From assembly GCA_023515795.1 (NCBI GenBank), contig JALGPX010000018.1, positions 4,952-26,330 on the forward strand: a stretch of 21,379 nucleotides of DNA. The letters are read 5' to 3'. Below, one piece after another: positions 1 to 21,379 of this stretch. The stretch is from Amoeboaphelidium occidentale (taxonomy: Eukaryota; Aphelidiomycota; Aphelidea). Each line of letters opens with the position of its first letter. Position 1 is the first letter of the stretch. Under the pieces are notes generated by a model that was not told the DNA's origin, searched no databases, and saw only the letters and a list, made by a program, of their open reading frames with translations. The position numbers were made by a program, and so were the translations under genes.

Positions 1-3000
1 GCCATCAAAACTGTACCGTAATTGTTCTTGCGTAACCATTGAAATAGCGAACCATCAGGGTAATACTTCATCACTATGGATAGCGGATTCTCAGTATAGC
101 CGATGATTTGACAGAAGTGCGGAAAAGAAGAAAGCATAATCATGATGCCAACTTCTTGGTAAAAAGCATCTTCACTTGCGTTACTTGCGACAAACACGAT
201 TTTTTGTACCACCACGTTACCAGCCTTTTGAGCTAGAGCTGAGTTCATTATCTTGGCAAGAAACAGTTCACCGCCACCACCTGCTGCAATCCTAGTTGAC
301 TTGGCAATCAAAGAGCTTTCAAGAAGAAAGGCAGCGTGTTTTGAAATTCCCATGATGGAATTCACCACGGTTTCCAAATCAGTTGTTGCGAAATTAGTGT
401 TTGTGGATAAATCCATTTGAGCTTTGCTTACGGCCGGCATATCTTTTGATTTCTTGAAAGAATAAATCCCGATCGTGGCAATAATTAAAAATCCAATTGC
501 TATAGCACCTCCAACAATTGCACTGGAAGGCAAAGACAAACTTGATCCCTCTGAAAAGCCACGGACTACCGACTTGGTTCTCTTTTTAACTCTGTCGTTG
601 GGAGATTTCATTGTTGTTGATGATGTTACAGCGTTTTCACCAAGAAACCCAGGGTCATAAAGCAAGACTGAAAAATCGTCGCTCCCAGAAAAAACAGAGC
701 CGTTGTAACAGAGTACCGAGGTGACTGGTTTTAATGCTCCCAAAAAAACGTCTTCGTGTCTTCCTGATTGTATATTCCAGCGTCTGACAGTGTTGTCAGA
801 TCCAGCGGAGAACAGCGCATTCTTGCACAAAGAAAGAGAATTAACAGGTCCTAAATGCCCAAGAGCAGTGGCTGAAAGTCTCTGCAAAATTTTTATCTCA
901 ACTTTTTCTGTAAGGGACCAACTGAAAATCGTCTTGTCGTCAGACGCAGAATAGAGGCTTTCCCTGTCAGCCAACAGATAATTAACTTTTGATGTGTGTC
1001 CTTTCAAATCAAACTCAAACAGAGTTGTTTCAATGTTCCAACTTATCACCGTCCCTGATTTTGAACCTGCAACTATGTACAAGTCGGTGACTGCAAGGCA
1101 TGTGATAGGATTAGCCGCGGATATTGTTTTTGTTCTTTCAGAAGAAGTGTTAAGCGGAAGAATTACAATTTCGCTATCACCCCTCAGGAAATAAATCTTG
1201 CTGCGAGACACAGTTGCACTTAAAACAGGAAGATTAGAATTATTAAACAGAACTTGAGGTTCACTTTCCCCACGTATCAAAAACCGTAGGATGAGTCCAT
1301 CAAAGCCAGATGAGAAATACCAATTATCTTGGCCATGTAATGAAGAGATCGCATTCGAATGAAGATTAAAAGAGCGGAAAGCTATAGCAGTATCAATCTC
1401 AAAAGCATGTATCAAACCACCTCTCGTTCCAACAAGTAAGCTATTCTCTGAAGCAAACAAAGCAGTCACAGAAGCACTGCGGTTCTCAAACGAAAAAGCA
1501 ACTTTGCGAGTGACCATATTCCATTTTCTGACAGAACCATCGAAACTTGCCGAGTAAAGAACTCCGTTGATATCAAGGCAGAGAGACCTAACGTTATCTT
1601 GATGCCCTTGGTACGTTTCTAGAATAGTCAAAGTATTGAAATCTCTGGATCTAATCAAGCCGTCCAAATGGCCTGTCAGTAATCGGGAAGGTGTGGACAC
1701 AATAGAATAGAATACAACACTTTCTCGCAGATGAACTGTGACGGTTTCAAAAGATATTGAATACATGTATAATCCATTATCTGTGCTGTAAATGATGCTA
1801 TTTTCATAAAGAAATATGGTGTAAACGACGTAAAAAGCTAAACAGTTATGAAACAAAGAAGAAAACTGACTTCTAATTGTTTGAAAATCTTCAGGGGAAC
1901 CTTTGTTCCATATTTTGAGAGTTGAATCGTAAGACCCAGAATAAAGAAACTCTGTATCTACCAGTATAGACATTACAGAATTAGAATGACTAACAAACTC
2001 AGCTTCTTGTTCACCTGAACTGATGTTCCATTTCTTAATAACATTGTCATGTCCACCAGAGTACAAGAACAAATCATCAGAGGTAAGAGTTAACATTGCC
2101 CTTGTATGTCCTTAGAGTTAATGGCTAAAATATTGATCGTTACCAAGAAGCGTTTTAATCGCAGACATGTCAGTCAAGTTCCAGTGCTTAATCAACAAGT
2201 CGGCACTACCTGAGAATAGTGTATCTTCGTATATACGCATGCAAATAACGTCATCAATATGACCCATAATCACATGATAAGGATCCCTGCTGTTAAAGGA
2301 AGTATCCCAAAATCTAACTTCGGCATCGTCTCCGCCACTTATAACGAACGTCTTCCACAAAACCACTGCTTTGAGAATAACTTGACGGCCACTGTACACG
2401 AATGATGGTTGCATTGAAGTCAAGTTCCATCTCATAACAGTTGTGTCTGCTGACGAAGAAAACAGACTCTGTTCTTTAGAGCCAATACTAAGTATCCTTT
2501 CTTCGTGATATCTTGGGAAACTATCTATGATTTTGCCATCACTTATGCTCCATTTAATTAAAGTTGAGTCCCATCCACCGGAATACAGCTCATTGTCAAT
2601 TACTTTCAATGCTGTCACAAAACCTCCGTGGCCGATGAACCTATTAAGGAGTAAGCCACTATCTGCATTCCAACTGATGATTGTATTATCTGCGCCGCCA
2701 GAGAACAGAATCGAGTCTGACATATGTACAATAAAGACAGAATCTGTGTGTCCGCTGAATGTTAAGGTCATAGTTGCGCTTGGTATGTGAATTTTATCAA
2801 GTTGATCTCGTAAACCATTCATTCCTATATACGCAAAGTCACCTTTCACAGTAATAGAGTTAAGTATCACATTGAAATCTATAAGGTTATCGACACAATA
2901 ATAGCCGGCTTACCAAATAGAAGAGTAACTCTGCCAGCTGCCAAGTCAATCTTTCTAAACTTGTAATCCAACCCACAAGAATACACAAGATTATTTTGAA

Positions 3001-3370
3001 ATGATATACTATAAATGGCTGTATTGGCAGCCCTGAGCCAGATCCTTCTGATAATTGAACCAGATTCCAAATCCCAAACTATGATCGTATCATCCCATCC
3101 TGCAGTGATCAGTCTTGAGTCATTTGTAACAAGAAAGGCCTGTATAAGTTTTGTATGTGCTCGAAAAGTTCTTTGAATTGCACCTGTCTCTACATCCTTC
3201 TGAATAATGTCGTTGGAGTATGTTAACAACAAAGAATCCTTGAACAAACCGATACAGTCCACAGTAGCCGCACGATCCTGCATCAAGAAGCTCTTCACAT
3301 GTTCAGTGCAGGTTATTAATGAGCATAAGAGCAAAATTATGAAGTGCACACACGATTTTATGGAGATCAT
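1..3370 (-). CDS. WD40-ectodomain transmembrane receptor kinase, paralog 1 (3' end outside window)
   Basis: Coding exons on the minus strand are 3370-2914, 2878-2144, 2110-1871 and 1837-1, open at the window edge (about 1089 residues visible). The ATG at 3370 opens a strong signal peptide (core FIILLLCSLITC). About 900 residues of WD40-type blades follow, with repeated D-x-x-(I/V)-x-x-W-(D/N) endings such as DDTIIVWDLESG and DNTVRRWNIQSG. A single membrane span (AIVGGAIAIGFLIIATIGIY, near residue 912) and a basic stop-transfer KKSK come next. The kinase domain then starts, with a Gly-rich loop (AAGGGGELF), Lys in VVQKIVFV and Glu in FYQEVGIM; the window ends just before the catalytic loop. 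The family and topology suggest a cell-surface or ER-lumen sensor signalling to a cytoplasmic kinase; the ligand is unknown. The exon lengths 457/735/240 match paralog 2 (457/738/240), which supports the introns. Confidence 0.9.
1838..1870 (-). other. Probable intron 3 of WD40-kinase paralog 1 (33 nt, no stop, multiple of three)
   Basis: The segment begins GTCAGT and ends GTTTAG and is phase 1. It contains no stop and keeps frame, so an ORF scan reads through it. Paralog 2 has an intron at the homologous site (9530-9561). With it removed, the exon before it is exactly 240 nt, as in paralog 2. Confidence 0.75.
2111..2143 (-). other. Intron 2 of WD40-kinase paralog 1 (33 nt)
   Basis: The intron begins GTAACG and ends TCTAAG, phase 1. 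It contains an in-frame TAA. Its removal gives KTLLGHTRAMLTLT, a normal WD40 blade start, at the same site as the GC-AG intron of paralog 2. Confidence 0.85.
2879..2913 (-). other. Intron 1 of WD40-kinase paralog 1 (35 nt)
   Basis: The intron begins GTAAGC and ends TTATAG, phase 1. Removing it joins two coding stretches that otherwise stop, and both then align with paralog 2. Paralog 2 has an intron at exactly the same position, after 457 coding bases. Confidence 0.9.
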
Positions 3371-3492
3371 ATCAAGATGTTGAGTTGAAACAGAAGAGAC
3401 AAAAGTGTTTGATCACCCAAAAGGATTTTTCATGTCGATTTACAAATATTTTAGCCGGAATAAGATCCAACCATGAAATCTTTCACTCGGTT

Positions 3493-3498
3493 TTTATT
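3493..3498 (-). terminator. Poly(A) signal AATAAA for the 3521-4276 gene
   Basis: The minus strand reads AATAAA about 22 nt after the TAA stop of the neighbouring gene, a normal distance for a short 3' UTR. Confidence 0.5.
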
Positions 3499-3520
3499 GA
3501 TGAAAACACGAGCAGTATAT

Positions 3521-4276
3521 TTAGAGCTGCGCGATGAGACGTCCAATGTGGGCAGGTAGAAACATTGAATCTGGCGGGCAGATCACTTCTTCCACTGGCT
3601 GCTCACATGATTTGGGAAGTTGAAACAATTCCGATTTCTGCTGTCCTACGACAACATCAAAGTAGTCCGTTGCTCCAGGATCTTCTCCCTGGTTGGTACT
3701 TCGCAAAGGCAACCCTGTCTGAGCAGACGCGTAGTAGATAACTTTGTTTCCAGAACCCGCGTCCAAATCCCATCTATGAGCCCACTGTCCACGGAACTCC
3801 ATTGAACCTTGATATTTGGATTTCTGCAACCAGAATCGACTTAGATTTCCAACTCCGGGTCGTTTTTGGCATCTTCCCCATTCTCCAGATGTCTGCCCAT
3901 TTCCTGTATGAGTATCAATTACATAGAAATCCTTCGCATAAAAAATAATCGAACATACGGGTTCCCATTGTTCTTGAAAATTCAAGTAATGGTTGTAGAA
4001 ATCAAATCTAGAGTAACTTCCTCCCGGAAGATCTTGGAAGTAAAATTTTGTCCACCAAACGGGAGACACGGAAGGATCTGCATCGGTACCAATTTTGAAG
4101 AGAGTCGCGTTAAATGCAGCTGGCCAAATATGCGTGGCAGGCGGTTGTTTAGCTAAGACGCGAGTTTCTAGAAGGAGAATCAGCAGAATAATGAGAATCA
4201 TAATGAAACTTAAAAGCAAAATTGTTACAGATTTATTCTCCTTAAAGTAACAAATACAAACTGCACCGGCTTTCAA
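3521..4276 (-). CDS. Signal-anchored lumenal/extracellular protein of unknown family
   Basis: A single open exon encodes 251 residues and ends at TAA. After a short N-terminal cytoplasmic segment (MKAGAVCICYFKENKS) there is a strong 20-25 residue hydrophobic span made mostly of Ile and Leu. The remaining ~205 residues should therefore lie in the lumen or outside the cell, as a type II protein or with a cleaved signal. This part is rich in aromatics and Gly (PVWWTKFYFQDL, GNGQTSGEWGRC), contains several cysteines and two N-glycosylation sequons (NAT, NLS). Spaced W/F/Y positions suggest a compact beta-rich fold, but I do not recognise the family. It lies in the same strand direction as the receptor gene 150 bp downstream, in a separate transcription unit. 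Confidence 0.8.
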   Translation of the reverse strand: MKAGAVCICYFKENKSVTILLLSFIMILIILLILLLETRVLAKQPPATHIWPAAFNATLFKIGTDADPSVSPVWWTKFYFQDLPGGSYSRFDFYNHYLNFQEQWEPVCSIIFYAKDFYVIDTHTGNGQTSGEWGRCQKRPGVGNLSRFWLQKSKYQGSMEFRGQWAHRWDLDAGSGNKVIYYASAQTGLPLRSTNQGEDPGATDYFDVVVGQQKSELFQLPKSCEQPVEEVICPPDSMFLPAHIGRLIAQL

Positions 4277-4336
4277 TAAAATATCAAGAAAGAAACATGA
4301 AATAACGCTTCTGTGTAGGTAAAACGGAATGTGTCT

Positions 4337-5540
4337 CTAACTTTCATCCAAAGAGCTGTTTTTGAGGAATCTTTTGCAGGACTCATTAGAAGACTTTGAA
4401 CCTCTTCTTTCCAGATATTTCGTAATGAGTTTAATATTCGACTTTGCGACATGAAATACCTTTGGAAAAAATATCTCGAATAGTATCATCCACGAGACAA
4501 ATTTTCAAAAGGCTGTCATCAAAGAGTTTATGTCTCCAGTTTCCATTAGGAACATGAAATCTCCATGATAGGATTTTCTTTAAAGGACCCAGATAAATTT
4601 GCACTGGTTCACGGTTTACAACTAATTCAGGCAAATTTCGAATCATATTGTACACCAGATCTTCAAATAATTAGCCGTAGTTGGGTCGCCGCTTTCTGAT
4701 AAGCTCTTTCAGAAAAATATCGAATAAATTTTCTAGGCTAGTGAGACCCTCTGGTGTCGCATTAACGATGCATTGAGACATGCGCCCAATTTTCCCAAAA
4801 TCACGCAGCTTCGGTAACAAACTCAGAAGATGATGTAAACCTTCTTCACAACTGATTGAACTGTCACTCACACTTCCAAAGATTTCAGCAATGATACGTT
4901 TAATAAGCTCTTGCTCAAACAGAGTGTAGTTCATTTTTTCGGCATAATCCAACACATCAAGCCAGTACTCAATTTTCTTCATATCATAAATGTCTACATG
5001 GTTATCTTTTAAAAGATTGCGACAATTGGAGTAAAAAATGTCCTCAAAGAAGTGCCGATAATGAGATTTTACCAGTTCGGAGTTTTCTTCTCTCACCCCC
5101 TTGATTCTTCTATACATGTGGTCAATATCTTAATTCTCGCGGTAGTTAAACTCAACTCCAAGATCTGCAAGAATATATCCCATTTCCAGGCCAAGCTTGT
5201 CCAGGCCGCTTCCGGTCATGCTATCAATACAGCTTCCAATAATACCCAATTGATTGTAGTAAAATAATCTATTATAGTAGAAGAAATAAGCGAATTCGTA
5301 TGCTTTATCATATAGCCTCTCCACAATGTCTTTCCAATTTCATATTTTGTCACGATAAGTGTGAATAATACTTATGGCACAGTCTTGTTAAGCTTCTGTG
5401 AAAAAGTTTACGTAGAACGATAGGTCTGATGTTGCTTCCAAAACCATAGTACTCGATTCCTGAAGGCAAGCAAGATCGTTAAACTGCATGTTCATCGCTA
5501 TTATTCTTATCATCTCCAGCGGAAGGCTCGAAAGGGACAT
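4337..5540 (-). pseudogene. Decayed F-box-like gene with four in-frame stops
   Basis: From the ATG at 5540 a coding-like frame runs to 4431 without changing frame. It is interrupted by stops at 5388-5390 (TAA), 5340-5342 (TGA), 5130-5132 (TAA) and 4671-4673 (TAA). After the stop at 4431-4433, similar coding-like sequence continues one frame over to a TAG at 4337-4339, which suggests one frameshift. The N-terminus (SLPLEMIRIIAMNMQFNDLA) resembles an F-box; the body is helical and leucine-rich with no domain I recognise. I looked for short GT-AG introns that would remove each stop: only weak donors (GTTTAA, GTTGAG) exist for the third and none for the fourth. The neighbouring genes have clean frames, so decay is the best reading. 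A real F-box protein would recruit substrates to an SCF ubiquitin ligase. Confidence 0.6.
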
Positions 5541-5770
5541 TATCTGTGCCACATATTTGCAGTGTTATAGACTTTGTTTCAAAAAAAAGATCGGGAGTTA
5601 ACGAGCTGTGTAGTTACACCGTAGGTTCAAGGATTTTTTAGGAGGAAAACGTATCGATAACCAAAGTGTACTAGGTTGTGATTAACTCTTAAGCATGGAA
5701 GCATACATAGGTTTTCTATTTCGTTCAGAACACACTAGCGTCTCGCGCAAGAATGTATTCCTTTAAGCGC

Positions 5771-6259
5771 CTAGACAGTGTCGGGTTCCTTTCGTTTCTT
5801 TTCCATTGAGCTTTTACTGTTGTCTTTTCTTTCCGATTTCGCAGACACATCTGCTTCAGTTTTAGACTTTTCGACTGTTTTAACATCTTTCTTGATGGTT
5901 ACAACACTTTTCTCACAGTTCGCATCAACTCTAATGCCATTCTCTTTCACTTCAGGGGCAGAAACAGGCTCTAATATCCTCATAAAGGGCGGCGGTTGGA
6001 AATGATTGATTAATTTCTGTATTGTACCTTTCTTGCGATACTTGACTCCGTTTTCAGCATCATATATTCGAATTTCCTCCTCTGTTATTGGGTATGGCTT
6101 TGCTTTGCCATCTTCTATGTAAAATCTTGATGGTGCAGGTGCATTATGTCGACGACCCCAAGCCTGGGCCTCTGAAGCTCAATAGAGAAGTTAATAGTTG
6201 TCATTTATGATGATCATACCCTTCTCGGCTTTCTCTAGTGGTGAAAGTTTCCTTGGCAT
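5771..6259 (-). CDS. Small Lys/Glu-rich protein of unknown function
   Basis: Two exons on the minus strand, 6259-6220 and 6171-5771, encode 146 residues ending at TAG. The first exon gives MPRKLSPLEKAEK. After splicing the protein continues EAQAWGRRHNAPAPSRFYIE and then a charged stretch with a conserved-looking core (PYPITEEEIRIYDAENGVKY, then RKKGTIQKLINHF). From about residue 80 it is low-complexity, rich in Lys, Ser, Glu and Asp, and probably disordered. There is no signal peptide or membrane span. The composition would suit a nuclear or nucleic-acid-associated protein, but that is a guess. The two-exon model rests on one 48-nt intron that joins the upstream ATG to the long open frame. 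Confidence 0.65.
6172..6219 (-). other. Intron of the small Lys-rich gene (48 nt)
   Basis: The intron begins GTATGA and ends CTTCAG, phase 1, and contains in-frame stops. It joins the short MPRKLSPLEKAEK exon to the downstream frame. Confidence 0.65.
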
Positions 6260-6327
6260 AATGTTTAATGTTTTGAATTTGGTTCAGTGTGATGAAACAA
6301 ATTCATGTTCTCCAAAATTCACGACGT

Positions 6328-6333
6328 TTTATT
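6328..6333 (-). terminator. Poly(A) signal AATAAA for the 6349-7722 gene
   Basis: The minus strand reads AATAAA about 16 nt beyond the TAG stop of the binding-protein gene. Confidence 0.5.
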
Positions 6334-6348
6334 CTTTTTTGTACTGGT

Positions 6349-7722
6349 CTAACCCAGGAAGACGGCTAGAATAGCGCTGAGAGCGATAGTGTACATGGAA
6401 GGAACTTGAACGGACTCGCCTGCATTAGTAACACCATTTTCCAGCTTCACTTCACATTTTTCAACTGCGAAAGCTGGTGTTACGGAAGCCGTGACGTCTG
6501 AGCAAGCGGAACTTTCAGTTACAATTACTGTCTGCTTCTTTGATGCATTTCTGAACCATTCAAAACCATCATTCGATGTTGCCCCACCAGCAACAATAGC
6601 AGCCAAATCTTTAATAACCGCATCTGGCATAGCGATTGCAGTTTCAAACCAACCATCAGCGCCAGCTGGACTTCTATTTGCATCAACCCTCCAGATTTGG
6701 TCGTTCTTTGCAAACTTGTATTGCTTCTTGATGTCATCATCGCTTGTTTCTTTCAACCCATAAGCAATCTTGAACTGATCATAAGGATCTTTAGTAACGT
6801 CTGGCATGTATGACTGATCAATGACAATGTCTGCATCAATTGATTTCAAAGCACTTAAAAAGTCACTTGCTGAAGTATACACACCGGAGCCGCTAACTTT
6901 TGGTGCAACACCGCCAGCATCCTGGGTAAAAGCGGCCTTGTAAGAAGCAGTATCAATGAACCACTGAGCAGGCTGAGAAAATTCAGGATATGCTGGAAAG
7001 TAGTTGATCCAAGCAACGACTTTAGGTTTTGCAGCAGACTTGGCATTAGTTGACACGCAGGTGTACTCTGCAACAACGCCATCATAATAAGTATTAGCAG
7101 CAGCTTCCTTGTTGAAGAATAGAGAGATTAACTTGACCCATTCAGCTCTTTTCAAAGGAGAATCATCAGCTGAAGCCGGAACCGTGACTCTGACAGGTGA
7201 GAATTCTCCTGAAGAGTAACCATCAAGCACAGCCTGAAAGTTGGTATTGGATTCCAAGTAAGTGTTATTGGATGTCTCTTGATAACCCAATCTCATCAAT
7301 AGATTGTCTGAAGCCATCTTCTGCAAGCAAGCAGATACAGCATACTCAGCACTTCCTAACCCCTTGATCGCACCACGCAAACCCAAGATTTCAAGGAATG
7401 AAGTAGTGGTAGTATCAGTAACAGCAACTCCTTGCAATGGGACAGCAAAGTACTTGATCTTGTTTCCAGCACGAGATGGCTTTGGTGTACCGCATTGATA
7501 TAAAACCAATTCTTCGTTTGATGCAACGTTCTTGACGATCTTATAGCTCTTCTCGTACACCACAGTAAACCCAGTGGTACTTGTTGGAGTGGTCTTCTCT
7601 GGGAAGTAATCAACCATATCATCATATGTTTCAGCGCACCCTTGTAAGTTCTTTGTCAATTGAGCATGAGCAACCGAGAAAGTTGTTAAAGCCAAGACCA
7701 ATGAATGGTAAATATGTCTCAT
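6349..7722 (-). CDS. GPI-anchored periplasmic-binding-protein-like (TroA/BtuF-type) surface protein
   Basis: One exon encodes 457 residues and ends at TAG. The N-terminus is a clear signal peptide (MRHIYHSLVLALTTFSVAHA, cleavage before QLTK). The C-terminus is a short hydrophobic tail (SMYTIALSAILAVFLG) after a small-residue region (TNAGES), the pattern of a GPI-attachment signal. The body resembles the helical-backbone class of bacterial ABC-transporter solute-binding proteins that carry metals, siderophores or cobalamin: a PKVVAWINYFP strand opening the second lobe, a SIDADIVIDQSYMPD segment and a DQIWRVDANRSP segment. Related secreted single-domain proteins are known in fungi. I infer a wall- or membrane-tethered ligand scavenger; the ligand cannot be read from the sequence. 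No transporter gene lies nearby. It is divergently transcribed from the WD40-kinase gene at 8028. Confidence 0.75.
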   Translation of the reverse strand: MRHIYHSLVLALTTFSVAHAQLTKNLQGCAETYDDMVDYFPEKTTPTSTTGFTVVYEKSYKIVKNVASNEELVLYQCGTPKPSRAGNKIKYFAVPLQGVAVTDTTTTSFLEILGLRGAIKGLGSAEYAVSACLQKMASDNLLMRLGYQETSNNTYLESNTNFQAVLDGYSSGEFSPVRVTVPASADDSPLKRAEWVKLISLFFNKEAAANTYYDGVVAEYTCVSTNAKSAAKPKVVAWINYFPAYPEFSQPAQWFIDTASYKAAFTQDAGGVAPKVSGSGVYTSASDFLSALKSIDADIVIDQSYMPDVTKDPYDQFKIAYGLKETSDDDIKKQYKFAKNDQIWRVDANRSPAGADGWFETAIAMPDAVIKDLAAIVAGGATSNDGFEWFRNASKKQTVIVTESSACSDVTASVTPAFAVEKCEVKLENGVTNAGESVQVPSMYTIALSAILAVFLG

Positions 7723-7760
7723 TATTGCAAGATCAGTCCGAGATAGAGCTGAAGATGTCT

Positions 7761-7768
7761 TTTTATAT
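7761..7768 (-). promoter_or_regulatory. TATA-like box for the binding-protein gene
   Basis: The minus strand reads GATATAAAAAG, about 40 bp upstream of the ATG at 7722, which implies a very short 5' UTR. Confidence 0.45.
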
Positions 7769-7795
7769 CGTGGTCAATTTTATGCTGCGATGATT

Positions 7796-7809
7796 GTTTC
7801 CATGGCAAC
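7796..7809. promoter_or_regulatory. X-box (RFX transcription-factor site)
   Basis: GTTTCCATGGCAAC matches the RFX consensus GTNRCC(N0-3)RGYAAC-type palindrome (GTTNCCATGGNAAC form) at every defined position. It is 74 bp from the minus-strand start and 219 bp from the plus-strand start. RFX factors are known from opisthokonts and amoebozoans. Confidence 0.55.
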
Positions 7810-8027
7810 GATTGCCGCCCAGTGTGATCGCTCGATGGCGTAATAACGGATTACTTCTACGTTTGAGACTTTAGCGCTTAATTTAATGATGGCTTCATTA
7901 CATTTATTAAAAATAAAGAGTAATAGATCTGAAACCTCTGATAGCATCAAGGTTTGTTCTTTTGATCAAGGTTGAAACTGGCTATGTTGTGCTTCGCTCC
8001 AGTTTGTTTCATCACAAACTCCGCGAC

Positions 8028-11000
8028 ATGAAACTGAAAGCATTTTGCCACTACATCAGCACTTTAGCTTGCTTACTGGGTGCTTCTAGTTTAAATCATG
8101 AAAAGAGCTTTCTTTATCAGGATGGTGCTTCCAATGTGTTTGCAATAGCAATCTACAAAGATTCTTTGCTGCTTACAGTTTCGAACGACGTTGTTCAAAA
8201 GGATATCCAGACTGGCTCCATTCAGAGAACCTTTAGAGCTCATCAGAGTTTGGTTTATTCATTTTCTGTTACAAATGACTCCATGATGATAACATCTGGA
8301 TTTGATGATATGATCATTCTTTGGGATCTTGAAACAGGATCGATTCTAAAACGAATTTTGTTGAGTCGGTTGGATTCACGGATAAGAAGTATTGCTGTTC
8401 AAAATAATCTTGTAGTTACAGGTGGTCTTGATAGCAAAGCGAGGACAATTGATTTGGTTAGTGGAAGAGTTGTCAGAACAATCGGTAACCATTCCAAACA
8501 CATTGTTCTTAATAGTCGTAGATACAGACGGCTTTGTTTTTAGTGTAGTAGTAAGTGGTGAATTCTTTTACATTGGAAAACAGAACCAACCAAACGTTGT
8601 CAGATACTCTACTCAAAGAGGTAGTAGCAACCTGGCGTATGATGGCCACACAGACTCGGTGTTCTCCATTTTCTTGTACAACGATATTCTTATTTCAGGG
8701 TCTGCTGATACAACCGTCGTGTGCTGGAATGCAAGTAACGCGAGAACATTGCGAGTTTTAAGTGGTCATACAGATTTCGTGAGAGTAGTTGCTATTTTTG
8801 ATGGATTTCTTTATTCAGCTGGAGGAGACACATATGTTGTCAAATGGAATATCGAAAACGGACAGATTTTACAAATGTTCCCTACATTTCACTACCATGA
8901 AATAATGTCTTTCGCCTACAAACACTCGGAAATATTTACAGGATCGTTGGACACATCAGTGATCCGATGGGATTCAATTTCAGGCCGGCGGCTAGTTTCC
9001 TACGAAGGCAAAAACACCAAATTAAACGCTGTTGCTGCATGGAAAAATTTCGCTATAAGCGCGGGTGAAGACGTCGAAATTAAAGTATGGGATTCAACCA
9101 TTGATAGTATAGAACCGTTGGCAATTATGATTAATCACACCGTCTCCATCAACTGTTTGTGTTCCTATGAAGATTTCCTTTTCTCGGGAGGCTCCGACGG
9201 CACAGTCAAACAATGGGATATGAAACAATTTATACCTAAGAACACATTTGAAGGCAAGACAATTCCAAACTCGAACTCTCATTCTTTAGGTCAAACAAGT
9301 GTAATTGTTTCGCTAACAGCCTTCCAGGGGTTTCTGTACTCCTCAGGACACAGTATTGATATATACCAATGGAATATTTCATCTGGCTTACTCGAAAACC
9401 GATTTGTCGGTCATACCGGCTGGATTGACTCCGTCACAAATGACGCGAGCTCTCTTTACTCAGGATCGAATGATAAAACAATCAGAATGTGGAATGTTCA
9501 ATCGCTGCAGAGCTCAAAAATTTTTTATTGTAAGTATCAATTTTTCTATTGACTTTGATAGCCGTTGATTCTGTAAGAGCTGTATGGAGAACACAAGATT
9601 CGATTTTAGCTTGTGCTTCTGAGAGCCTTCAGTCTTTTTCTGTTGCAAGCGGTGAGACGCTAGCTTTTTTTAAAGGTAAGTTCATTTATTATTAAATTGA
9701 TTGCATAGAACCCAACGGTTGTTCTTCCATCGTTTCTCTGTTAGAAAGGGCCTACACTGGCCATTCTGATGGTGTCATCCGAGTCAGAGACTTGTATACA
9801 CTTAATGTTATGAAAACATATTCAGGTCATTCGGATTATGTTACGTGGCTTTGCTTCGACGATTCATACAACTTATTCTCTACAGGATTTGACGGGACTA
9901 TAAAGAAATGGAATTTGTTGGCAAGAAAGGTCGCATATTCATTTGAGATCCGTTCAAAGGCAGTCACTGCTCTAGCAGTGAGCGGCAAGAACTTATATGT
10001 TGGAACCCTGGGAGGGAATATCTTCTCCTACAACACCGATGATGCAAAGGCTGTAAAAGAATTGAGATACTTTAACCAACGTGTTACGTCTTTATTGGTG
10101 TTGAATTGTTCAGTTTATGGGTCAAGTCTTGATGGGCTACTACTAAAGTTCATAGATGGCACAAAAGACGTGGTATCGGCTCTTTACAATTCCAATTTAG
10201 AACCAGTAAGAAGTCTTACTGCCAACAATAATTATGTGGTTTCTTTACACGGAGAAGAAAAGGTTGTGATTTTTTCAAATGATTCGTTTAGAAGAACGTT
10301 GGATTTCCCTGCTGTTATGGTTTGCATTGCCGCAACCGACCGGTTCCTTTTGGGAGGAACTAGATCGGGTGTAATATACTCATGGAATATCGAAAGTTTT
10401 GAACTTTCACTGGAGCTGAAGGGACATATTTCTCAGGTTAATCATCTTCTTCCAGTTCACCAACGCCTTTTCTCTGCATCAGATGACAAATCGATCATTG
10501 AATGGTCTTTGAAGGATGGGATTAGTATTAATGCTTACCAAAGACTTTCTGCAAGAGTGCTGGGGCATCTGGGTTCTGTTAACTCTTTATCGTTTTGTTT
10601 TGGTACCTTATTCTCTGCCGGGTCAGATTTGTCGGTACGCCGATGGAATACGGCTACGGGGAGACATGAAGACGTGTATATTGGGTTTTCTGATATTGTT
10701 ACGTCAGTGACTTGTATTAATGGCTCGGTTTTTGCAGGGAGCGAAGATTTTTCCGTTCTTATGTTCCGACCTGTTTTCGATGATTTGTCTAGAGCAACGA
10801 CTTCATCAAAGGCCTTGATAACGACAGGCAAGAGGAAAGCCTCAAGAATAGTTCGTGGATCTCAATCTCATGTATCTCCTGAAACGTCGATATTAGCTCT
10901 AACTGTTGGTCTTGTATTCTTAGTGATTCTCCTAGTTGGATTCGGAGCTTTGTTTTCCTTTTCGAGGATTCAAAAGAAGGAAATAGCCGCAAAAACTTCA

Positions 11001-11780
11001 TCAAAGACTCAAAATGAGTCAAGTTTTACGGTAACAGATTTACAAACCGTTGTAAACTCAATCGTGGGCATATCGAAGCATGCCGAGTTTCTGCTTCAGT
11101 CTTCTGCTATTGCAAAAGTTCGTAGAATCGCACGTGGTGGTGGCGGTGAGCTGTTTATCGCTAAAGTTATGGATCCGCTATTGCAAAAGAAAGTGGGAGA
11201 TACGGTCATTCAAAAGGTTGTCTTTGTTTCGAGCAAAAGCCACGAGGAAGCCTTTTTCCAAGAAGTTGGAATCATGATCATGCTGTCTACATTTCCTCAT
11301 TTTTGTCAGATTATAGGATATACAGAGAATCCGCTATCGATGATACTGAAGTTCTACTTGCATGGCTCTCTTAATGAGTGGTTGCGGGAAAATCAAGCTA
11401 CTAGGCTTTTTGCTGTGAAATTATTGAAAGAACTTGCTGAAGCCCTAAATGCGATGCATTCTCATTTTTTGGCACACTGTGACATTAAACCGCAAAATAT
11501 CTTAATGCAAATCGAGAACGGAGTACCATCCTGCTTCTTGACTGATTTTGGAATAACTCAGATATTATCAGACGAGATTCTTGCATCCAGGATGTTCAAT
11601 GTCACCAATTTACGAGGATTATCCGTCAATTATGCCTCACCAGAAGCTTTCACAAACTTTAGATCTAAGCGTTACAATCTTGTTGATTTCTTGAAGTACG
11701 ACATTTACTCTTTTGCTTGCGTGGTGTATGATTTTGTCTCAGCAAGGCCGCCTTGGAATAATTCTTATGAATTCAATTAA
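8028..11780 (+). CDS. WD40-ectodomain transmembrane receptor kinase, paralog 2
   Basis: Exons are 8028-8484, 8516-9253, 9290-9529, 9562-9675 and 9709-11780, encoding 1206 residues ending at TAA. The protein starts with a signal peptide (MKLKAFCHYISTLACLLGAS). Roughly 17 WD40-type blades follow (for example DTTVVCWNASN, DKTIRMWNVQS, DLSVRRWNTATG), enough for two to three propellers. A membrane span lies at about 911-934 (ILALTVGLVFLVILLVGFGA). The kinase domain starts near 985: Gly loop RGGGGELF (992-999), Lys1019, Glu1035, catalytic HCDIKPQN (Asp1108), DFG Asp1129 and SPE. All catalytic residues are present, and HCDIKPQN suggests Ser/Thr specificity. The protein ends at PPWNNSYEFN, only 78 residues after DFG, so the last helices of the C-lobe are missing. 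Its stop is 8 bp from the convergent OST1 stop. I know of no described family with this architecture. Confidence 0.92.
8485..8515 (+). other. Intron 1 of WD40-kinase paralog 2 (31 nt)
   Basis: The intron begins GTAACC and ends TAATAG, phase 1. It lies after exactly 457 coding bases, as in paralog 1, and its removal joins two overlapping frames. Confidence 0.9.
9254..9289 (+). other. Probable GC-AG intron 2 of WD40-kinase paralog 2 (36 nt, no stop)
   Basis: The segment begins GCAAGA and ends CTTTAG, phase 1. It has no stop and is a multiple of three. Removing it converts an unalignable insertion into NTFEGQTSVIVSLTAF, which matches KTLLGHTRAMLTLT of paralog 1. The site coincides with paralog 1 intron 2, and the following exon is 240 nt in both genes. 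Confidence 0.75.
9530..9561 (+). other. Intron 3 of WD40-kinase paralog 2 (32 nt)
   Basis: The intron begins GTAAGT, has a branch-like TTGAC and ends GATAG, phase 1. It contains an in-frame stop, and its removal keeps the frame open into the next exon. Confidence 0.9.
9676..9708 (+). other. Intron 4 of WD40-kinase paralog 2 (33 nt), absent from paralog 1
   Basis: The intron begins GTAAGT and ends GCATAG, phase 1, with in-frame stops. Paralog 1 is continuous across the homologous position, and both proteins have 57 residues between intron 3 and the shared TGH motif. Confidence 0.88.
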
Positions 11781-11787
11781 ACTCGGT

Positions 11788-11793
11788 TTTATT
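11788..11793 (-). terminator. AATAAA overlapping the OST1 stop codon
   Basis: The minus strand reads GAATAAAAC, where TAA is the stop codon itself. If used, the cleavage site would fall inside the end of the convergent WD40-kinase coding region. Confidence 0.4.
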
Positions 11794-19153: not shown

Positions 19154-19154
19154 N
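19154..19154. other. Single-N assembly junction
   Basis: A lone N is followed by a run of ten T. Fanzor-like coding on the minus strand stops abruptly here and does not continue beyond, so two contigs may have been joined. Confidence 0.6.
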
Positions 19155-19302: not shown

Positions 19303-20270
19303 CTATCCCCTTCTTTTCATATATCCTGAATAAAGCGCATCTTGCAATGTTTCATCTGTACTCAATAGTTTTAAAAGTTCACCAATAAATTCCTGTTTAG
19401 ACAATAACAGATTATTAATAGTAATTGTTTCTTGTGGTTGCATTTGTGGAACAGATTGACTAGAAACAAGAGTAGATCGCAAAACACCAATAGGAACTTC
19501 ATTAAATGCAGGTCTTATAGTCTTCAAAGGGGTTGACGTAGAAGTTGTAGTAGAAGGAAGAACAGGAACAGATACTTTCCTTTGTTGTAACTGTAACTGT
19601 AGCTGTTTCTGTTGTAACTGTTTCTGTTGTTGAATAGATATAATTCTATCAATAGCAGAATTAATTGCCCATTCAGGATTCTGTTGAAGTGACTGTTGAT
19701 TGCCTTGAATCAAAGCCAACAAGTTAAATTCTGGACCTTTAGAAGGAGTAGGCTGATCAATACCACAATTCAAATAAGAAGTAGAAGTAGAAGTAGAAGT
19801 AGAAGAACCCATCAGAATTGTCTTTAAACGATTTTCCAATACTTTCAAATCAGCAACAGTTGAATTAGAAGTAGAAGAAGAAGAAGAAGTAGTAGTAGAA
19901 GTATCTCTGGGACAATAAGAAGATGATGGAACAACACTCATCAACATTTTATGGAATGAATCCAATTCCTGACTAGAATGAAACCATAAACCATAAATTG
20001 AACCATTCAAACTGTAAACCAAAAAAGGTTCCTGAACATAATACTTGAACTGATGATCAGAAGTAGTAGATTGATCAGAAGTAGTAGATTGAGTAGTAGT
20101 AGTAGGAATCATTGTAATGTGATTCTCTGTATTCAATCTGTTTAGAACAACTAAACCAAAGTAAGGCTTCTGACTCTTTTGTATAAGAAATAGAGTTCCT
20201 TCAATTTCCTTCTTCTCCCACTTCTCTTCTTTTGAATCAAAAGAAAAGACAATGACATGCGATGCACGGA
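19303..20270 (-). CDS. DCP1: mRNA-decapping enzyme subunit DCP1, 3' part (contig copy A)
   Basis: DCP1 activates the decapping enzyme DCP2 in cytoplasmic P-bodies. This piece is open from the N at 20271 to a TAG at 19303-19305. It carries the second half of the N-terminal EVH1 domain (EGTLFLIQKSQKPYFGLVVL, then YYVQEPFLVYSLNGSIYGLW), interrupted by a Thr/Ser/Gln-rich insert. Ser/Thr-rich and Gln-rich linkers (QQQKQLQQKQLQLQLQQ) follow. The C-terminal helix pair (LLSKQEFIGELLKLLSTDET) fits the DCP1 trimerization domain. Together with 20272-20956 it represents one gene; the true 5' end is in copy B. No intron is evident. Confidence 0.88.
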
Positions 20271-20880
20271 NGTTGATTGCCTTGAATCAAAGCCAACAAG
20301 TTAAATTCTGGACCTTTAGAAGGAGTAGGCTGATCAATACCACAATTCAAATAAGAAGTAGAAGAAGAAGTAGAAGTAGAAGTAGAAGAACCCATCAGAA
20401 TTGTCTTTAAACGATTTTCCAATACTTTCAAATCAGCAGCAGTTGAATTAGAAGTAGAAGAAGAAGAAGTAGTAGTAGTAGAAGTATCTCTGGGACAATA
20501 AGAAGATGATGGAACAACACTCATCAACATTTTATGGAATGAATCCAATTCCTGACTAGAATGAAACCATAAACCATAAATTGAACCATTCAAACTGTAA
20601 ACCAAAAAAGGTTCCTGAACATAATACTTGAACTGATGATCAGAAGTAGTAGATTGATCAGAAGTAGTAGATTGAGTAGTAGTAGTAGATTGAGTAGTAG
20701 TAGTAGTAGTAGTAGGAATCATTGTAATGTGATTCTCTGTATTCAATCTGTTTAGAACAACTAAACCAAAGTAAGGCTTCTGACTCTTTTGTATAAGAAA
20801 TAGAGTTCCTTCAATTTCCTTCTTCTCCCACTTCTCTTCTTTTGAATCAAAAGAAAAGACAATGACATGCGATGCACGGA
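19695..20880. repeat. Near-identical direct duplication of a DCP1 segment (576 and 609 bp) around an N
   Basis: 19695-20270 and 20272-20880 are the same sequence. They differ by at least one substitution (GCAACAG / GCAGCAG) and by in-frame changes in AGT/AGA-type trinucleotide tracts, totalling 33 bp. An unmerged overlap of two contigs, possibly two alleles, explains this better than a real tandem duplication. Confidence 0.9.
20271..20271. other. Single-N assembly junction inside DCP1
   Basis: A lone N separates two overlapping copies of the same DCP1 segment. The sequence before it (ending GATGCACGGA) recurs at 20871-20880, and the sequence after it recurs from 19695. Confidence 0.9.
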
Positions 20881-20956
20881 CAAGAATATCAGAAATTTGT
20901 TCATCAATTTGTCTCTTTAAAGAATTTAAATTTAATTTATAAAGTTGTTCTTCCAT
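20272..20956 (-). CDS. DCP1: mRNA-decapping enzyme subunit DCP1, 5' part (contig copy B)
   Basis: The ATG at 20956 starts MEEQLYKLNLNSLKRQIDEQ, the canonical DCP1 EVH1 opening, followed by ISDILVRASHVIVFSFDSK and WEKKEIEGTLFLIQ. The frame runs to the N at 20271, within the linker (EFNLLALIQGNQ). Compared with copy A, the Thr run in the EVH1 insert and the Ser/Thr linker differ by whole codons. The frame is also open upstream of this ATG as low-complexity Thr/Val codons, so the ATG at 20956, where family similarity starts, is preferred. Confidence 0.88.
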
Positions 20957-20961
20957 CTTTG

Positions 20962-21150
20962 TTGTTGTTGTTGTCGTTGTATCTTTAGTTGTTGTTGTTG
21001 TTGTTGTGATTGGGAAATCTCTTTTGTGAGAAATGATGAAGAAAAAGACAAGATTCAAAAGGATTCCAACAACAACAACAACAACAACAACAACAGAATC
21101 TTTTAACAACAACAACAACAACAACGATGATGATGATGATGATGATGATG
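20962..21150. repeat. Trinucleotide microsatellites (GTT/AAC and GAT)
   Basis: The plus strand has two GTT runs (from about 20962 and 20989), AAC/ACA runs (about 21066-21124) and a run of about eight GAT (21126-21150). They form the DCP1 leader, a CAA-rich unstructured 5' UTR on the minus strand, and encode homopolymer tracts in the plus-strand gene. A further CAA/ACA run lies at about 21270-21311. Confidence 0.8.
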
Positions 21151-21379
21151 ATATACATTCAGAATCAACAAATGAAAGGAATATTAGGAGGATGACGTCA
21201 TCTTCTATTGTACATTCTTCTTTTGATGATGATGAAGAAGAAGTTATTATAGTTGATTATCCTGCCTCAACAACAACAACAACAACAACAACAACAAGAA
21301 CAACAACAACAGTTTACTCAAATACTCAACAGGATCATTGGTGGATTACAATTTATATTACAAATTTATTAAAGATTGA
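21036..21379 (+). CDS. N-terminus of an unknown protein with poly-Thr/Asn/Asp runs (3' end outside window)
   Basis: An open frame from the tandem ATGs at 21033/21036 continues past the window edge. It encodes MKKKTRFKRIP, nine Thr, ESF, seven Asn, eight Asp, then IHSESTNERNIRRM, an acidic DDDEEEVIIVDY segment, more Thr runs and NTQQDHWWITIYITNLLKI. The last residues are hydrophobic and could begin a membrane span. The low-complexity N-terminus is uninformative and the family is unknown. The gene is divergent from DCP1 with about 76 bp between the start codons. Because repeats make long open frames easily, the call is moderate, though the non-repeat segments look coding. Confidence 0.5.
   Translation, partial: MKKKTRFKRIPTTTTTTTTTESFNNNNNNNDDDDDDDDDIHSESTNERNIRRMTSSSIVHSSFDDDEEEVIIVDYPASTTTTTTTTTRTTTTVYSNTQQDHWWITIYITNLLKI

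Follow-up and report, generated by a model that had tools for sequence, protein, structure and literature searches.

Receptor kinases with propeller ectodomains are known, MET and PknD among them. IRE1 and PERK are type I proteins of single genes, with a propeller-like lumenal part of a different fold and a cytoplasmic kinase. Bacterial WD40 kinases of the PkwA type have the kinase first and the WD40 repeats after it. Plant non-RD receptor kinases form large families with a leucine-rich repeat (LRR) ectodomain and a complete kinase C lobe. The tandem WD40 proteins Pwp2, Utp21, Gemin5 and those of cilia are intracellular, with neither span nor kinase. In the plant non-RD receptor EFR, Cys replaces Arg, and catalytic activity is reported to be dispensable for antibacterial immunity (PMC8463890). 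Cyanobacterial WD40 kinases are described as a Ser/Thr kinase joined to WD40 repeats (PMC2176072). The kinase domain of SteC is reported to be active with a reduced C lobe that keeps helices F and G, pieces without these helices being inactive; RIO domains are described as trimmed kinase domains without activation loop. Described here are two genes, A and B, of Amoeboaphelidium occidentale, a member of the aphelids, which are characterized as algal parasitoids and sister to Fungi (PMC10608142). Both lie in a window of 21,379 nucleotides (assembly GCA_023515795.1, contig JALGPX010000018.1, positions 4,952 to 26,330, forward strand; "the window" means this whole stretch). Each is predicted to encode a secreted WD40 ectodomain, one membrane span and a cytoplasmic kinase, which in B ends after helix F.

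By splice models, gene B has 4 exons and encodes 1218 amino acids (aa); gene A has 4 exons and encodes 1089 aa, incomplete at the window edge. Introns of both genes are 31–35 bases long; the one after exon 3 of gene A (33 nt, in frame) is less certain than the others. The database protein MP638_006610 (A. occidentale, hypothetical protein, 1216 aa) is identical to protein B minus two residues at one splice acceptor, its model beginning exon 2 6 bases later. Pfam gives WD40 (PF00400) in A (E 1.7e-47) and in B (E 2.9e-35), and Pkinase in B (E 3.9e-23, residues 1020–1214, profile positions 19–200 of 263); the order in B is WD40 ectodomain first, kinase last. Among the best 25 of 37 Pfam families for gene A a kinase family is absent, and the kinase start of A is seen by alignment to B. 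The 4951 bases past the window edge of gene A are all N, so that the 3' end of its kinase is not visible. An earlier, sequence-only reading of the window had proposed a signal peptide, WD40 blades, one span and a kinase for both paralogs, to be checked by domain search; Pfam, hydropathy and charge bear this out, for the kinase of A at its start only, and the view that two diverged copies of the same layout look functional is supported.

The kinase is truncated at a fixed place. The 30 loci read to their end are the best-scoring matches of the B kinase and give, B included, 32 kinase copies. A stop codon stands 1–8 residues after a conserved Trp in 30/30 loci, and 1 residue after it in 26 of the 32 copies. 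The terminal motif is PW in 31 copies and SW in one; stop codons are TGA (17), TAA (13) and TAG (2). The first database search gave 46 family proteins. In 41 of them the end lies 0–8 residues past the Trp (PW 39, AW 2); the other five (P0025, P0040, P0042, P0044, P0046) are merged, fused or cut models. Residues after the last DFG string number 71–80 in 40 family proteins and 96 in P0097, of a second group; the shortest other database matches have 103 (P0079) and 119 (P0052), then at least 121. The Pkinase match ends at profile position 198–200 of 263 in 5/5 family proteins with a listed match, while 33 of 34 first Pkinase matches in the same genome reach position 255 or further; A and P0046, scanned likewise, have no Pkinase match among those listed. 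The model of span plus kinase of B (predicted local distance difference test, pLDDT, 82.5) shows the kinase core with confidence and the activation loop with less, and its last element is helix F. It aligns structurally to c-Src 257–470, BRAF 448–664 and RIPK2 5–237. The kinase domains of these three continue with helices G–I; as model and alignments stop at helix F, helices G, H and I of a complete C lobe are missing, with catalytic residues kept. P0046 (MP638_004964) has an interrupted kinase, after which come a stretch with a P-loop-like motif, more WD40 and a span. No Pfam match is listed for this stretch, which is reminiscent of NTPases of the RHS/Crinkler type; P0046 may be a merged gene model or carry an insertion.

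Wrong gene joins, or a missed 3' exon in place of a truncation, are extremely unlikely as an explanation. Gene models A and B are predicted from sequence alone, and the database includes merged or fused models (P0025, P0040, P0046). However, one open exon holds the kinase, the span and about half of the ectodomain, and the end is conserved in all 30 loci by way of three different stop codons. There is almost no space downstream of B: 8 bases lie between its stop codon and that of the convergent ribophorin I gene (window 11778–11791), so any extra 3' exon would overlap that gene. The same end is found in P0072, a transcriptome-labelled protein of another aphelid.

All 33 rows of alignment A2 have Lys118, helix-C Glu134, His205, catalytic Asp207, Lys209, Asn212, helix-F Asp280 and Pro297-Trp298; DFG Asp and APE Glu are present in 32/33, and the activation segment from DFG to APE is present. 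To judge from these residues (Lys, helix-C Glu, Asp, Asn, DFG, APE) the domain appears to be a eukaryotic protein kinase. The assignment made in the sequence-only reading holds for the catalytic residues, but not for the C lobe, which is incomplete (helices G–I missing in 32/32 copies from 30 loci). The kinase is non-RD: Arg precedes the catalytic Asp in 0/49 readable motifs from 54 proteins, the residue being Cys in 44, Ser in 4 and Leu in 1. The same receptors might carry a kinase that is non-enzymatic in vivo and serves as a conformational switch or as a docking platform for another kinase, a possible but doubtful alternative that overlaps with the preferred one except in the output step and follows the model proposed for EFR. 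Pseudokinases often lose catalytic residues; here those checked are kept and the kinase is under purifying selection, which tells against this alternative, as do the reported activity of SteC with a reduced C lobe (helix G being kept) and the existence of RIO domains as trimmed kinase domains. The missing helices G–I favor it, as does the HCD motif, non-RD as in EFR, whose catalysis is reported to be dispensable (PMC8463890).

The ectodomain was modelled on paralog P0016 (1185 aa) with an alignment of 45 rows. Mean pLDDT is 83.9, with ectodomain blocks mostly at 85–95. The 84 ectodomain strands form 21 four-stranded repeats of WD40 type, d strand first and c strand last; this fits three closed seven-bladed rings, and the ectodomain is predicted to consist of three seven-bladed WD40 propellers. 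Profile match and four strands per blade agree with WD40 propellers, and the structure prediction proposed in the earlier reading thus favors its assignment. The best 50 Foldseek matches, where a name is given, belong to WD40 proteins, most of them with tandem propellers (small-subunit processome and ciliary doublet chains, Pwp2, Utp21, Gemin5, Apaf-1). Whole chains superpose poorly in the 50 matches listed (TM-score at most 0.26 by query, root-mean-square deviation 12–32 Å), so the likeness is one at the level of propellers. Mean normalised entropy is 0.41–0.47 in propellers, 0.278 in the kinase and 0.66 in span plus linker. Blade 21, adjoining the membrane, is the most conserved (0.23). The top face is weakly more variable in propeller 1 (p 0.037).

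Topology was judged by hydropathy and charge only. One strong membrane segment is present in each protein, from residue 917 in A and 923 in B, and the kinase side of the span is net positive in 12/12 proteins. All 15 N-termini chosen as apparently complete have a hydrophobic stretch. The stretch is variable, but a motif like LEHEKSF is kept after it in the main-family proteins of A. occidentale, which fits a signal peptide. Predicted signal peptide, single span and kinase on the positive side suggest a single-pass receptor kinase.

The genome searched is an assembly of 11.3 Mb in 204 contigs; the published A. occidentale assembly is given as 13.56 Mb, 951 pieces and 7495 proteins (PMC10608142). 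The B kinase has at least 148 genome matches; 147 of 215 candidates were scored, so that family counts are lower bounds, and 114 rows were taken into the locus count. At 45% identity to the B kinase or more, 85 rows, some of them fragments, merge into 80 loci on 43 contigs. Sixty-three rows span the query from position 20 or before to 250 or beyond and end at 254–260, the Trp being query position 253. Groups of 3–6 loci in the same orientation occur on contigs C73, C114, C4, C133, C134, C36 and C90. Both genes of the pair formerly noted over 1..11780 are thus there, but within a far larger family, and 3521–7773 holds other genes. The 29 rows below 45% identity include the WD40 receptors L041, L042, L043, L044, L047 and part of L039, with WD40 recognized by eye; for L041 and L043, Pfam entries of the near-identical P0097 (99% identical to L041) and P0099 agree. 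Kelch receptors with the same truncated kinase are L045 (C76) and L046 (C143), also P0098 and P0100–P0102; Kelch was assigned by eye, with Pfam support from P0071 (97% identical to L046 in the searched part) and the relative P0102. The kinase module thus appears combined with different propellers. Beside the WD40 receptor of L039 (C15), at 4613–8219 (-), two predicted proteins lie next to each other; each has a signal-like start and one span, and by eye they are possibly CAP/SCP-like. Among the open frames, two very long ones (C15, C177) proved to be mostly runs of N and were set aside.

The number of loci also bears on stress sensors of the IRE1/PERK type, resident in the endoplasmic reticulum with lumenal WD40 propellers. 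Such sensors would have the type I topology, the propeller lumenal part and the cytoplasmic kinase, but about 80 diverged loci are unexpected for a housekeeping stress sensor and the proteins end with the kinase, at the point where IRE1 continues into its RNase; this identity is very unlikely.

The family lies towards contig ends: median distance is 7.7 kb against a null of 11.9 kb (p 0.006; 58 rows, 26 contigs of known size), and of the groups at contig ends (34), all members face outward in 23 and inward in 10, with 1 mixed (p 0.035). The telomere-type repeat (TTAGGG)4 has no genome match. A subtelomeric location was set aside for this reason, and because assembly breaks at the family could mimic the bias.

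Identity to B is 36–57% in ectodomain halves and 55–63% in the kinase (14 closer full- or near-full-length proteins). In the 406 sufficiently overlapping pairs, nonsynonymous differences have a median of 0.38 for the ectodomain part, against 0.23 for the kinase. The ratio of nonsynonymous to synonymous change (dN/dS), where finite, is 0.06–0.21 in the kinase and 0.13–0.23 in the ectodomain (the 22 pairs listed), by which the kinase half is under purifying selection. Tracts of at least 60 identical nt occur in 3/465 pairs. Overall identity of the tandem neighbours L012 and L013 is 67%, but 496 nt of their kinases match without a difference; L023 and L027, on separate contigs, share 181 identical nt at 83%. 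Both tracts are best read as gene conversion, with assembly error possible for L012/L013, which lie side by side on one contig. A wholesale exchange of kinases between ectodomains is not supported: their distance matrices correlate at 0.38, near the 0.41–0.44 of contiguous within-domain halves (interleaved ectodomain columns, 0.73), and nearest neighbours agree in 9/29 cases (control, 11/29). A variable surface-coat or adhesin family with an incidental kinase would account for the large family, the tandem arrays, the position towards contig ends and the conversion-like tracts; it is very unlikely, the kinase being the best conserved part (0.278 vs 0.41–0.47 in propellers) and under purifying selection.

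P0072 (EukProt, label Partr_v1), which is taken here to be from the transcriptome of Paraphelidium tribonematis, has a hydrophobic N-terminus, one span and a kinase ending ILKRREPWTSRE. Its ectodomain has no Pfam match. P0072 finds at least 57 genome matches (57 of 205 candidates scored), all at places also found with the B kinase, and 56/57 run to its residue 790–793 of 794. Because P0072 ends in the same way, the truncated kinase may be older than A. occidentale. By word search, kinase, WD40 and receptor are absent from the main text of PMC6299283, on the Paraphelidium transcriptome. A tree was built from 42 chosen kinase cores cut to equal length, 20 of them truncated and 22 complete; L003 and L005 were left out, no frame having passed the pattern. 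It places the truncated kinases on one side of a branch with support 96/70, short of what the tool counts as firm; the set is poor in fungal and protist kinases, and closer complete relatives may be missing. Many other relatives are metagenomic, partly genes of A. occidentale itself. Amoeboaphelidium protococcarum has no match by name among the database relatives, which is not proof of absence.

A and B are probably single-pass (type I) surface receptors of the aphelid, used for diversified recognition, perhaps of algal hosts. A cleaved signal peptide would send about 880 residues, three serial seven-bladed WD40 propellers, outside the cell. One span would lead to a cytoplasmic non-RD kinase with ATP-binding and catalytic core, ending after helix F. 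Outside the cell, the ectodomains would bind a range of ligands, which most plausibly sit on algal host surfaces, or on other aphelid cells. Binding would cluster the receptors and permit signalling by transphosphorylation; alternatively, a recruited partner would supply the missing helix G–I surface. Output is the least certain step: a dimer or partner may complete the substrate platform, or the role may be purely allosteric. Tandem duplication would build the repertoire and gene conversion would homogenise the kinase half in some copies, the ectodomains diverging. Family size and divergence argue for recognition of varied ligands rather than for one housekeeping signal, and, since a parasitoid has to recognise algae, the first ligand candidates are on host surfaces.

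Several observations weigh against these receptors as described. The predicted signal peptide of B is weak, with the lowest N-terminal hydropathy of 15 (11-residue mean 1.75 vs 2.95 in A). The ectodomain shows no enrichment of N-glycosylation sequons (73 observed vs 102 expected from shuffles; inside part 12 vs 20; 12 proteins), and sequon enrichment was rejected as a sign of secretion. Cysteines are few, 5–11 per protein (12 proteins). Such counts are not typical for a secreted ectodomain, yet would be compatible with one. Overall, the top loops, the classical ligand face, do not exceed the bottom in variability (entropy 0.453 vs 0.512, p 0.052), and propeller 3 shows the reverse of top-face variability (p 5e-8). 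Synonymous sites, which underlie the dN/dS values, are near saturation (0.77, 0.81) in most pairs. A conserved Arg normally pairs with the APE Glu; loss of this partner and of helices G–I may abolish catalysis.

Aphelids live by finding and entering algae, and no host-recognition receptor is known in them to our knowledge. About 80 loci of secreted-WD40 receptor kinases in a genome of 13.6 Mb are obvious candidates. If true, this would be a rare extracellular use of WD40 propellers. It also raises the biochemical question whether a kinase whose active site is intact can signal without helices G–I. Proposed with reserve is a receptor class of the aphelids' own, with propellers (WD40, Kelch, others) on an active kinase permanently without helices G–I and in need of a partner or dimer; in one species its WD40 type would have grown to about 80 loci, a recombining repertoire for recognising algal hosts, like the non-RD immune receptors of plants but in the service of the parasite.

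Table 1. Parts of genes B and A in the window.
Feature	Position	Strand	Basis or remark
Gene B exon 1: predicted signal peptide and first blades	8028..8484	+	Splice model, hydropathy; start as in MP638_006610
Gene B predicted signal peptide	residues 1-21, about 8028-8090	+	Probable cleavage site
Gene B exon 2: WD40 ectodomain	8516..9529	+	Splice model, Pfam
Gene B exon 3: WD40 ectodomain	9562..9675	+	Splice model
Gene B exon 4: remaining ectodomain, membrane span, truncated kinase	9709..11780	+	Splice model, Pfam
Gene B stop codon	11778-11780	+	
Gene B transmembrane segment	10890..10946, residues 923-941	+	Hydropathy peak, flanking charges, long helix in model
Gene B kinase domain	11118..11777	+	Pfam, alignment, model; ends PPWNNSYEFN after helix F
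Gene B HCD motif	11475-11483	+	
Gene A exon 1: predicted signal peptide and first blades	2914..3370	-	Splice model, hydropathy
Gene A exon 2: WD40 ectodomain	2144..2878	-	Splice model, Pfam
Gene A exon 3: WD40 ectodomain	1871..2110	-	Splice model
Gene A exon 4: remaining ectodomain, span (residues 917-935), kinase start	1..1837	-	Window edge cuts exon

Other genes of the window, by Pfam scan, are ribophorin I, platelet-activating factor (PAF) acetylhydrolase, a p24 protein, a glycosyltransferase and Dcp1; among the 10 further frames scanned, 5 have no Pfam match. The spacing of gene B and ribophorin I is a sign of a very compact genome. Between the receptors, at 6349–7773 (-) and 3521–4336 (-), are two proteins, secreted-looking by eye and without Pfam match. 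The Dcp1-like gene has adjacent near-identical stretches at 19303–20286 and 20237–21256 (-), with single N bases at 19154 and 20271; the doubling has the look of a duplication made in assembly.

Receptor kinases that bear a propeller ectodomain are known, and so are trimmed kinases. A secreted WD40 ectodomain, a fixed end after helix F and about 80 loci were not met in combination in the literature matches listed; in titles and abstract starts of these, secreted WD40 receptor kinases and aphelid truncated kinases are not a topic. The architecture had been called undescribed, which is more than can be claimed: a propeller ectodomain as such is not new (CRINKLY4), and an earlier description is possible. 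PMC10608142 cites Mikhailov 2022 (its ref. 9) for receptor-like protein kinases that differ between aphelids and fungi, and that work may already describe part of the family.

CRINKLY4 shares with B a receptor kinase with a predicted beta-propeller ectodomain; it differs in an RCC1-like, cysteine-bridged propeller with a TNFR-like domain, and in Arabidopsis five such genes are reported (PMC4617170). RCC1-like crinkly and TNFR-like domains are not among the best 25 of 37 and 38 Pfam families here. IRE1 and PERK share the type I topology, a propeller-like lumenal part and the cytoplasmic kinase; IRE1 differs in the RNase (KEN) after the kinase, where the present proteins end 1–8 residues past the Trp (30 loci). 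The tandem WD40 proteins of cilia, Pwp2, Utp21 and Gemin5 are the best Foldseek matches of the ectodomain, but are intracellular and without span or kinase. Bacterial WD40 Ser/Thr kinases share kinase plus WD40 propeller. The statement that these are non-secreted may be too strong, as 5/7 metagenomic kinase-WD40 proteins (source organism unstated, probably bacterial) have a membrane-like segment before WD40; in these the kinase precedes WD40 where the motif is readable, and the order in B is reversed. SteC and RIO share a kinase fold with reduced C lobe; as reported, RIO is without the activation loop, which is present here, SteC retains helix G, and neither is a receptor. EFR and its relatives share a repeat ectodomain on a receptor kinase and a non-RD kinase (PMC8463890); they have LRR and a complete C lobe, in contrast to WD40 and a kinase ending before helix G in the aphelid.

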